Source: Lentibacillus halodurans (lineage in GTDB: Bacteria; Bacillota; Bacilli; Bacillales; Amphibacillaceae). Taken from it: a stretch of 64,000 nucleotides of DNA. The translations under genes were made by a program, and so were the position numbers. Below are positions 11,331 to 31,362 of this stretch, piece after piece. The stretch is from the NCBI RefSeq assembly GCF_900112045.1, contig NZ_FOJW01000006.1, positions 62,001-126,000 on the forward strand. Direction: 5' to 3'. The notes under the pieces were generated by a model. It did not search any database. It was not told the origin of the DNA and saw nothing but the letters and a program-made list of their open reading frames with translations. The number at the start of each line of letters is the position of its first letter. The first letter of the stretch is position 1.

Positions 11331-12397
11331 TTACCGCATTTTCCGAAAATGATGATGATCACGCTGATGTTTTGAGATTTTTTTCCATTTATTTTTCTCT
11401 TCCATTTGTGCTTTCTTATCCCGCTTCCTTTTTTCATACGCAAGTTCACGCTGCAGCTTGAGATAGCTTTGAAATCGGTCTTCGGATAATTCGCCGTTTG
11501 TCAGCGCCTCTCGAACCCGGCAGCCTGGTTCCGTATTATGTCGGCAATCATTAAACTTGCAGGCTGCTGCAAATGATTCGACATCCTGAAAGGTAGTGTC
11601 AATGGCTGATTCGCCCTCCCACAACTGCAGTTCACGCATACCGGGTGTATCAATCAGCAGCGCACCATTTGGCAGCCTGAACATTTCCCGGTAAGTAGTT
11701 GTATGACGTCCTTTACTGTCTGCCTCACGGACATCTTTTGTACCCTGCATTTCCTTATCCAGCAGCGTATTAATTAACGTCGATTTACCGACGCCTGATG
11801 AACCGAGCAGGGCAGCAGTATGGCCATGCGGCAGATATGCCATTAATTCATCAATACCATCCCGCGTTATATTACTGATGGCAATAATCGGAACATTGAT
11901 CGCTGCCGCTTCCACCTGTAAAATGGCAGCATCAACTTCCTCGGTTGTACATTCATCCTTTTTCGTCAAAATAATGACAGGCGAAGCGCCACTTTCATAG
12001 GTGGATAAAACATAGCGCTCAATACGGCGCAAGTTCAAATCATGATTGAGTGAATTGACAATGAAAACAGTGTCAATATTAGCAGCAATCAGCTGCGCCT
12101 CGGTACGTGTTCCGGCTGCTTGTCTGACAAACTGGCTTTTTCTGGGCAAAACCCGATCGATGACCGCCTTTTCCTCATCTATCAGTTTCGATGCACCTTT
12201 ACCCAATCTCCCACTGCCGGGAAGTCAATTGGGGTTGCCGCTTCATTCAAAAATTTGCCGCTCAGATGACCATGATAATCCGTATCACCGTCTGATATTT
12301 GATACCTATTTTTTTGAACTATCATCACACGGGCAACACGTTCCGTTTCAACATCCCGAATGGAATCATTCCATCCAATCTTTTCTAACTGAGTCAA
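11331..12397 (-). pseudogene. rsgA: Ribosome small-subunit-dependent GTPase A, with a frameshift
   Basis: Circularly permuted GTPase that helps mature the 30S subunit. The N-terminal OB-fold part (from TTG at 12397, with GGGAGGAAG before it) reads to PAVGDWVKVHRN and stops; the rest continues in the -1 frame as LIDEEKAVIDRVLPRKS, then G4 TKKDE, G1 GSSGVGKST, G3 DTPGMRE and the zinc knuckle CKFNDC-H-C, with a basic tail. One extra A in the CGAAAC run at about 12188 would restore VHRKLIDEEK. So this is a one-base deletion or a sequencing error. The layout with a basic C-terminal tail suggests the second RsgA paralogue found beside CpgA/YloQ in some bacilli. Confidence 0.8.
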
Positions 12398-12401
12398 AAT
12401 A

Positions 12402-12455
12402 GACTTCCTCCCTTAAAATTGGAGGAAAGTCGTACATTACACGGACTGTTCCTCC
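12402..12455 (-). promoter_or_regulatory. Three-segment competing stem over the rsgA ribosome site
   Basis: On the minus-strand RNA, segment 1 GGAGGAACAGTCC (12455-12443) can pair with segment 2 GACTTTCCTCC (12431-12421), or segment 2 can pair with segment 3 GGGAGGAAGTC (12412-12402), which is the rsgA Shine-Dalgarno site. The two stems exclude each other. Segment 1 is inside the last codons of a leader ORF. This is the layout of a translation attenuator. Pairings are read by eye, not computed. Confidence 0.55.
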
Positions 12456-12505
12456 ATTTTGTTGCGTGTGTTCTGATTTTCTGCAATTTGATTAAATACG
12501 ATCAT
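12437..12505 (-). CDS. 22-residue leader peptide upstream of rsgA
   Basis: Short ORF starting MIVFNQIAEN and ending KMEEQSV. AAAGGAG lies about 9 bases upstream of its ATG, and a good promoter lies 30 bases further. Its final codons carry segment 1 of the competing stems. No homology recognised; the case rests on the ribosome site, position and link to the RNA structure. Confidence 0.5.
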   Translation of the reverse strand: MIVFNQIAENQNTRNKMEEQSV

Positions 12506-12536
12506 AAAACACCACTCCTTTCAAAATGGATGAACC

Positions 12537-12565
12537 AGAATATTGTTATTTTACTAAAACAGCAA
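12537..12565 (-). promoter_or_regulatory. Sigma-A-type promoter for the rsgA leader
   Basis: TTGCTG (12565-12560), 17-base spacer, TATTCT (12542-12537) on the minus strand, directly after the stop of the upstream acetyltransferase gene. It would start an RNA that includes the leader ORF. Confidence 0.5.
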
Positions 12566-12571
12566 AGAATG

Positions 12572-13426
12572 TTATAACTTTTTCGTAAAAAGTGCAATTT
12601 CATGCTCTGCGGAAAACCCGACCGACTGATATAACCCGAGTGCACCTTGATTATCGGCAGATACACACAACTGTATATCATTGATAGATTTAAACGAGAA
12701 AAGCCATTTTACTGCAGCCGCCAAAAGTTGTTTTCCATATCCCCTGCTGCGAAATGGCTCGTCCACTGCAATAAATTCGATTGAACCCTCACCATAATTC
12801 GGATCAGCTTCCAGATAAGCATAACCCGCCAAACGGCCGTTATCATGCACCACGAACACTCTTTGCCGGTGACTTATCCGCTTAATGATTTCCTGACCAC
12901 TATAATATGTCCCGGGAAACACACGATCATGCAGGTTTTTAAATACAGCTATTTCTGCCCGGCTCAATTCGTTCAAATCAGCATTTGGCAAGTCACCCCA
13001 TCGATCTTTAGAAATCGTGAGGATAACCTGATCTGCCTTCTGTTTAAAATGTAGTCTTTCAGCGAAGCTTTTAACAAGGTCATTATCGACATTGGGAAAT
13101 AAGCTAAAATGTTTAACAGTCGATGGAATATCCTTTAAAATTCTTTCCCATATTGCAAAAGCTACTTCCGAATCATATCCTGGATCAACAAAAGGACCCC
13201 AGATTTCTGCACGATCGTCTTCCGCATCCATCCCAATTAATCCAACCAGTCGATCCTTTTCTGCTGCAGCTGTGATATTGGTTATGTCTTCATTTAGAGC
13301 GTCCATAACCTCTTCAGGATCGGTTCCGCAAAAACCAATATGGTACTTTTTCTGTCGATTTAACATTGCTATAAAATTGGCTGCCGCTTTCACTGGAATC
13401 TCTTTTCCGTTTATGATGGTATACAT
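12572..13426 (-). CDS. GNAT-family N-acetyltransferase
   Basis: 284 residues, likely two GNAT folds in tandem. The N-terminal half is divergent. The C-terminal half (about 160-284) has the acetyl-CoA-binding motif RSRGYGKQLL after beta4 (SIEFIAVDEPF), and the NQGALGLYQSVGF segment of the family. A TTG further upstream at 13441 is in frame, but GAAGGAG is placed for the ATG at 13426 (MYTIINGKE). Substrate unknown. It is followed at once by the rsgA leader promoter. Confidence 0.8.
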   Translation of the reverse strand: MYTIINGKEIPVKAAANFIAMLNRQKKYHIGFCGTDPEEVMDALNEDITNITAAAEKDRLVGLIGMDAEDDRAEIWGPFVDPGYDSEVAFAIWERILKDIPSTVKHFSLFPNVDNDLVKSFAERLHFKQKADQVILTISKDRWGDLPNADLNELSRAEIAVFKNLHDRVFPGTYYSGQEIIKRISHRQRVFVVHDNGRLAGYAYLEADPNYGEGSIEFIAVDEPFRSRGYGKQLLAAAVKWLFSFKSINDIQLCVSADNQGALGLYQSVGFSAEHEIALFTKKL

Positions 13427-13487
13427 AAGTTTCTCCTTCAATATGTCATGACAACATACTTATTCGACACCATCTCAGAAAATCCTT

Positions 13488-30631: not shown

Positions 30632-30654
30632 AGTTAACAATAATTTTATTCGAA

Positions 30655-30915
30655 TGAAGCTATGATGAAGAGTAGTAATCTGTCAATTGCACTTAAGAGA
30701 GTCGGTGGCTGGTGCGAACCGATGTGTATGATAGATGAATGGACTTCTGAGCTCCCAAACCGAACCAATTTTGCAGTAGGCTTTGGCGATCAGGTCTCAT
30801 CGTTACACGAGACAACTATTAAGCTGATGCTTGATAGTGCCAGAGTGAGCTGTTTTTCAGCTAATAAAGGTGGTACCACGGGTTCCTCGTCCTTTTCGGA
30901 TGGGGAGCCTTTTTG
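30655..30915 (+). ncRNA. T-box leader 1, tryptophan specifier
   Basis: Features in order: AGAGAG loop E motif near 30695, specifier TGG at 30740-30742 within GATGAATGGACTTCTGAG, T-box AATAAAGGTGGTACCACG (30864-30880) and a terminator stem GGTTCCTCGTCC/GGATGGGGAGCC with T5. Uncharged tRNA-Trp should stabilise the antiterminator. The stretch to 31040 holds a further small stem but no third T-box motif. Confidence 0.88.
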
Positions 30916-31039: not shown

Positions 31040-31362
31040 ACCAAATTGTCGAGCAAGAGAAGTAGGCTTTCGTGAAGCGTACAAGAGAGCCGGTGGTGGT
31101 GTGATACCGGTACGTGAATCATAGCTGAATGGACTTGCGAGAGGTTTCCTGAATGACAGTACGGAAACACGGCGCTCCGCCGTTACACGGATAGGATATA
31201 GGAAGATAGTACCGGCAGGCAGCTTGGATGAACAATGCTTGCCGGCCAGAGTTTCCCGTATCTGAACAAAGGTGGGGATCCACTTATGATCTCCAAAAGA
31301 GGTGGCACCGCGGTCACAATCGTCCTCTGCAACACATGTCATATGTGTTGCAGGGGATTTTT
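31040..31362 (+). ncRNA. T-box leader 2, tryptophan specifier
   Basis: AGAGAG near 31086, specifier TGG at 31131-31133 in GCTGAATGGACTTGCGAG, T-box AAGAGGTGGCACCGCGG (31297-31313), and a strong terminator CCTCTGCAACACAT/ATGTGTTGCAGGGG with T7. It lies in series behind the first T-box, 35 bases before trpE. Confidence 0.92.

Follow-up and report, generated by a model that had tools for sequence, protein, structure and literature searches.

A predicted ribosome-mediated translational attenuator before an accessory RsgA-type GTPase gene in Lentibacillus halodurans

What controls an rsgA gene that is preceded by a short open reading frame (ORF) with its own ribosome site? The question arises at a locus of Lentibacillus halodurans, in a stretch of 64,000 nucleotides (contig NZ_FOJW01000006.1, positions 62,001 to 126,000) that was analysed as a whole and is called the window here. 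An earlier note on this DNA had proposed an erm-like translation attenuator before rsgA. In ermC-type attenuators, the ribosome site of the target gene is shut by default and is freed by a ribosome stalled in the leader. The proposal is supported here by a conserved reading frame, conserved helices, covariation between segments 0 and 1 of the leader RNA and the direction of computed folding changes. Our estimate is a probability of about 0.8 that an accessory RsgA-type GTPase is here under ribosome-mediated translational attenuation.

The leader and the gene comprise the following features.

12548..12575, minus strand: putative promoter, ATAACA-16 nt-TAAAAT (consensus scan, 9/12)
12523..12535, minus strand: segment 0, GUUCAUCCAUUUU (minimum-free-energy fold, core pairs, covariation with segment 1)
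12515..12522, minus strand: leader ribosome-binding site, GAAAGGAG (sequence; conserved in alignment A1)
12437..12505, minus strand: leader ORF, MIVFNQIAENQNTRNKMEEQSV, 22 codons and stop (translation; ATG at 12505, stop ends at 12437)
12443..12460, minus strand: segment 1, AAAAUGGAGGAACAGUCC, 3′ end of the leader ORF (alternative partners: segments 0 and 2)
12421..12431, minus strand: segment 2, GACUUUCCUCC (partner is segment 1 or 3)
12402..12412, minus strand: segment 3, GGGAGGAAGUC, the rsgA ribosome-binding site (conserved core pairs)
11331..12397, minus strand: accessory RsgA-type GTPase gene, R2 (TIGR00157, tree; frame broken near 12182-12206)

The leader ORF, its frame, the segments and their pairing potential can be read from the DNA itself. 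The 22-codon ORF described in the earlier note is present on the minus strand with a ribosome site of its own, and the three segments named there are exact: GGAGGAACAGTCC (12455-12443), GACTTTCCTCC (12431-12421) and GGGAGGAAGTC (12412-12402). The total of three did not hold, since segment 0 makes four; it reads GTTCATCCATTTT (12535-12523), and its partner AAAATGGAGGAAC (12460-12448) lies in segment 1. The start codon of rsgA is TTG at 12397 on the minus strand, about 40 nt downstream of the leader stop. A genome of the same genus (L007) and Lentibacillus salicampi (L034) have leader regions identical in sequence to that of the window. A gene for a GNAT-type acetyltransferase of 289 aa (12572-13441, minus strand) adjoins the leader upstream on the same strand. 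Incidentally, two consecutive T-box leaders are located elsewhere in the window (30653-30897 and 31040-31330, plus strand).

A promoter had also been claimed. What stands is a weak consensus site; a promoter at 12548-12575 (minus strand) is plausible, though its statistics are weak. Three promoter-like sites scoring 9/12 were found on both strands of 12300-12700, versus 1.6 expected by chance. Among 45 relatives, the best-scoring -10 element is 47-49 nt upstream of the leader ATG in 20, and the score is at least 9 in 17, versus 8.5 in shuffles.

Which rsgA is it? The larger ORF of the gene scores 180.2 bits with TIGR00157 (RsgA family), versus a curated cut-off of 100. Its PDB matches are RsgA/EngC/YjeQ entries; 2rcn and 2ykr (RsgA or EngC, about 140 bits) are the nearest, and 1t9h (93.8) and 6zhl (83.4), which we take to be the B. 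subtilis and S. aureus proteins, respectively, are farther. In a tree of 77 rows, a branch (100/100, length 1.16) sets apart an R2 side of 49 rows, and across that branch are the rows of CpgA and most of those of proteobacterial RsgA. The R2 side contains Bacillota, two Pseudarthrobacter genomes, an actinobacterial metagenome-assembled genome (MAG), and a few proteobacterial and other MAGs. R2 is present in 6 of 12 genus genomes, 86 of 159 family genomes and, at E ≤1e-60, 221 of 397 order genomes. Judged by homology and phylogeny, the rsgA of the window is a member of an accessory RsgA subfamily, distinct from housekeeping CpgA.

The housekeeping, CpgA-type RsgA is encoded elsewhere in the genome, which carries R2 as an extra copy under attenuation predicted from sequence and computation. 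The housekeeping gene starts right at the stop of the preceding ORF, the two presumably forming the prkC-cpgA operon, and because it abuts the preceding gene there is no space for such a leader. All 20 relatives inspected have a CpgA-type copy, and in 19 of them an open frame of at least 84 codons covers most of the 330 nt upstream of cpgA.

In the window strain, rsgA is split into two ORFs (12397-12182 and 12206-11331, minus strand), and the frame change at 12182-12206 is outside any homopolymer run. Because the gene is frameshifted, its function in this strain is unsure. The switch could be real in the family and a relic here, standing before a pseudogene, as the broken frame suggests when set beside six relatives whose frame is intact at the equivalent place. 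On the other hand, there is no further break in the leader or in either ORF piece, and the break could be an error of sequencing or assembly in this draft of 31 contigs. A relic in the window strain is possible, if somewhat doubtful.

Conservation was examined in a family set of 89 places in 159 family genomes, of which 46 at ≥63% identity were analysed, including the window's own copy (WIN), read directly from the window. The same leader element is found upstream of the gene in each of the 46 loci. RNAalifold on a MAFFT alignment recovered only the helix of segments 1 and 2 (1:2), without two-sided changes. As the alignment displaces segment 3 in some rows, judged by eye, duplexes were computed for each sequence instead. 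Core pairs of 0:1 then form in 38-46 of 46 leaders, except at one mismatch position (8/46), and those of 1:2 in 45-46. Core pairs of 2:3 also form in 45-46 of 46, a count favored by picking segment 2 as the best match to segment 3.

The partner segment was swapped among 45 leaders in 5000 permutations, ignoring kinship. No permutation paired 0:1 as well as the real leaders do (0/5000, z = -6.4, kinship ignored), and 73 of 5000 did so for 1:2, which covaries weakly by this measure, again with kinship ignored. No covariation was seen for 2:3 (4519 of 5000 as good in the 45 leaders), because its core hardly varies. Plain compensatory changes in 0:1 are found in L113, L117 and L111. The earlier note would have dropped its proposal had related rsgA paralogues shown neither conservation nor covariation of the segments; every one of the 46 same-family leaders has the core of all three helices, and 0:1 covaries.

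A sequence model of the leader, built from 39 of the family leaders, was searched in 155 family genomes. All 44 matches at E ≤2e-8 are just upstream of accessory rsgA, as are the next three (to E = 1.5e-4), and matches beyond that are scattered or antisense. The element was seen before no other gene down to E = 1.5e-4 in the 155 genomes, a search whose strict filters may lose weak matches. By this search the leader element stands before accessory rsgA only. Within the family set, L121, L122, L123 and L125 form a subgroup with shorter leaders of 18-20 codons, and the distance from segment 1 to the rsgA start is 140-207 nt in L121-L123. The leader architecture may be changing in this subgroup.

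A conserved structure this strong could also belong to an RNA that senses a ligand, a protein or temperature, with no role for the short ORF. However, no Rfam family reached its gathering score over the leader; the best sub-threshold match was engA (16.2 bits versus 46), which we rejected as chance-level. Moreover, changes in leader length preserve the reading frame. The distance from the leader ATG to segment 1 is 36, 42, 45, 48, 51, 54 or 57 nt, always divisible by three, in 45 of 46 leaders, although in-frame ATGs were tried first, which favors the frame. The exception is L025 (56 nt), where the leader ORF is out of frame with segment 1 and the RNA segments are retained. A short leader ORF had been expected in relatives, and these 45 in-frame cases provide it; in alignment A1 (39 leaders), the chosen ATG is at one position downstream of the ribosome site. 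The majority of distant loci retain an ORF and not the sequence, which also counts against a sensing RNA. We regard it as highly improbable.

The window leader RNA has a folding energy of -39.6 kcal/mol, versus a mean of -28.25 for dinucleotide shuffles (z = -3.2), and beats 200 of 200 shuffles. In its minimum-free-energy fold, the 0:1 and 2:3 helices are formed. Segment 3 is predicted to be unpaired with a probability of 0.006 in the free window RNA, and in the 46 free leaders the computed accessibility of the rsgA ribosome site is 0.017 on average and above 0.5 in none.

The ribosome was modeled on the 46 leaders with a 30-nt footprint across which nothing pairs (no-pairing-across rule). When its P site is at codons 1-12, the accessibility of the rsgA site becomes 0.41-0.49 (0.71-0.90 in the window alone), and opening above 0.5 is reached in 13-29 of 46 leaders depending on the stall position. 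The modeled opening peaks at codons 10-12 and declines to 0.219 at codon 13 and to ≤0.065 at codons 14-21. When pairs across the ribosome are permitted, 14 of 46 leaders open with a stall at codon 10 (0.364 in the window) and one with a stall at codon 3 (0.015 in the window). Masking segment 0 has a similar direction, giving 0.454 on average, 0.897 in the window and more than 0.5 in 21 of 46. When segment 1 is covered, a fold that the earlier note had called for, the rsgA site stays shut in 46 of 46 (0.006).

These computations predict an ermC-type logic with 0:1 and 2:3 as the closed state and 1:2 as the open state. A ribosome held at codons 1-12 is predicted to free the rsgA site wholly or partly, depending on the modeling rule. 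Of the proposed switch by a leader ribosome, the direction is thus reproduced computationally, and the size depends on the rule.

The attenuator would work as follows. In a leader without a ribosome, 0:1 and 2:3 would pair and the rsgA ribosome site would be shut, segment 0 withholding segment 1 from segment 2. A ribosome finishing the leader would cover segment 1, and 2:3 would still close the site. If instead a ribosome halted early in the leader, within its first dozen codons and most likely around codons 10-13 (often NQNT), it would block segment 0 from re-pairing, so that segment 1 would be free to take segment 2 and rsgA would be translated. Impaired translation, whether due to a ribosome-targeting drug or to other slowing of early elongation, would then lead to synthesis of RsgA, with the 30S subunit as its presumed target. 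Stalling on the leader, the inducer and the benefit are what we infer.

If the ribosome terminating on the leader instead opened the 2:3 hairpin or re-initiated at rsgA, plain translational coupling would result. The roughly 40 nt between leader stop and rsgA in the window suit such coupling, and accessibility in the window does increase with the P site on the stop codon (0.60) or one codon beyond (0.66). At termination, however, the P site is at codon 22, a position that leaves the rsgA site closed (accessibility 0.007 in the window and 0.114 on average). Segment 0 and 1:2 are both conserved although coupling would require neither of them, and in 29 loci of the terminator type described below, rsgA starts 82-239 nt beyond the leader stop. 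Coupling is therefore quite unlikely.

Where on the leader would the ribosome stall? In 92 non-independent pairs (2-18 differences) of 28 equal-length leaders, with kinship ignored, pN/pS was 1.05 for codons 2-9, 0.30 for codons 10-13, 0.49 for codons 14-16 and 0.50 for codons 17-22. Codons 16-22 are within or beside segment 1, and codons 10-13 are outside it. By these ratios, codons 10-13 are the most protein-constrained stretch of the leader outside the RNA segments; their commonest residues are N, Q, N and T (17, 18, 15 and 14 of 28 leaders, respectively). The constrained codons coincide with the stall positions that best free the rsgA site in the model, whose effect size is rule-dependent.

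Known drug-arrest motifs are of the RLR or +x+ type. None of these was seen to be common to the family leader peptides, and RLR is absent from the window peptide and the family peptides listed. RNK in the window peptide was considered as an arrest motif and rejected because it is not kept in relatives.

The same switch could answer to a signal other than a drug, namely slow initiation or early elongation due to assembly defects, cold or amino-acid limitation, RsgA then answering a failing 30S supply. In line with this are the lack of a recognised drug motif common to the leader peptides and the prediction that a stall at any of codons 1-12 opens the site under the no-pairing-across rule. The vmlR gene of B. 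subtilis has a comparable leader, and its expression is induced both by stalled ribosomes and, at 20 °C, in a cshA assembly-defect mutant (PMC9226507), although the authors of that study consider a direct action of CshA on the vmlR leader possible. On the other hand, the protein-level constraint at codons 10-13 suggests a specific stall site, and the wholly different peptides in other families fit drug-specific leaders equally. A non-drug signal is a serious possibility, to which we give slightly less than even odds.

Leaders were also sought outside the family. A strict rule finds a short leader ORF and its ribosome site at 96 of 109 loci. Of the 13 that are leaderless by this rule, six (L012, L016, L018, L144, L163 and L168) show a leader in the alignment or under a looser rule; L041, L044, L045, L047, L149, L161 and L169 have no leader ORF or only one of five codons. 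The 93 scored leaders divide into 29 with a terminator, 60 with a hidden ribosome site and 4 lacking both. Pairing between the leader ORF and the 5′ arm of the attenuator is possible in 87 of 93, versus 23.9 in shuffles, and outside the close group in 47 of 51 by hand count, versus about 10.6 expected. The terminator occurs in 29 of 51 scored loci of other families.

Most loci of other families keep a leader ORF with altogether different sequences and peptides. In L162, all three segments have changed together (GAGGACAA, UUGUCCU and GGAGGACAA). L153 and L151 have a segment 2 whose two halves pair separately, one with segment 3 and the other with segment 1, and in L126 the leader sequence GGCACAUCCC pairs with GGGAUGUGCC of the terminator arm. 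Sequences differ between families, and the attenuator logic appears to be retained. Several terminator-type leader peptides (L126-L130, L134-L139 and L155-L175) share a proline motif (NFIAQP, FHVQP, TLPNG, HIPT), which may be an RNA constraint, since in some of these leaders the codons pair with the terminator arm.

In Actinomycetota, 11 of 17 loci have a short ORF with a ribosome site, with little common sequence beyond L048, L050 and L221. In these three, which comprise two Pseudarthrobacter genomes and a relative, R2 is preceded by similar leaders of 26 codons, where attenuation is possible. No WhiB7 box was recognised by eye before the Pseudarthrobacter R2 copies.

How does the predicted attenuator compare with known systems? 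As the earlier note had supposed, no attenuator of rsgA was found in the literature searched, which covered few subscription journals. The R2 leader shares with the ermC type, which is touched on in PMC10219788, a short leader ORF, mutually exclusive helices and a ribosome site predicted to be shut by default. Unlike there, the target is an RsgA paralogue rather than an rRNA methylase, segment 0 is upstream of the leader ribosome site with segment 1 at the 3′ end of the ORF, and no common drug-arrest motif was seen.

The nearest precedent for the R2 leader is HflXr, an extra ribosome GTPase copy induced by antibiotics. HflXr of Listeria (lmo0762) is the second copy of a ribosome-splitting GTPase, is controlled by leader attenuation and protects against lincomycin and erythromycin, its sister copy being uninvolved in resistance (PMC6310831). 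R2 resembles it as a second ribosome-GTPase copy that is wide in Bacillota and has predicted leader-ORF attenuation. The two differ in that HflXr is a splitting factor with demonstrated resistance, whereas R2 is of RsgA type and known from sequence; HflXr has transcription attenuation with an RLR peptide, whereas R2 here has a hidden ribosome site and no RLR. The vmlR leader likewise has an ORF and competing RNA structures, but its target is an ABC-F protein, its predicted ORF has three codons and it uses a transcription terminator (PMC9226507). The uORFC-6-1 motif, mostly of Bacillales, also places a leader ORF before a ribosome-associated GTPase, in that case hflX with an RLR peptide (PMC8632094).

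RsgA proteins have been connected with antibiotics elsewhere. In Streptomyces, one of two RsgA/EngC paralogues is activated by WblC and raised with tetracycline; by naming order it is SCO6149, the other being SCO5211 (PMC7157823). There the activator is a transcription factor (WblC/WhiB7), unlike the leader attenuation predicted for R2. Loss of cpgA makes B. subtilis modestly more sensitive to chloramphenicol and linezolid, an effect complemented by E. coli RsgA (PMC12445079).

R2 may then be an old accessory subfamily, the 30S counterpart of HflXr, made only upon stalling and rescuing, recycling or shielding 30S subunits under drugs. This reading includes a spread through Bacillota that reaches Actinomycetota, together with leader-ORF attenuation that has seemingly switched between transcription and translation control with its logic retained. 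We offer it tentatively, as somewhat less probable than a coin toss.

The kind of mechanism is already known; the target and the family are new. If all this is true, stall-induced translation-stress factors would make up a whole subfamily of the genes named ‘ribosome small subunit-dependent GTPase A’, a subfamily that neither the name nor family models distinguish from housekeeping RsgA. The intrinsic response to ribosome-targeting drugs would then gain a 30S arm beside HflXr and ABC-F proteins, and the R2 leaders would be a ready read-out of the drugs or defects that are sensed. Because the R2 subfamily has the same attenuator with either a hidden ribosome site or a terminator, it would also open the evolution of such switches to test.
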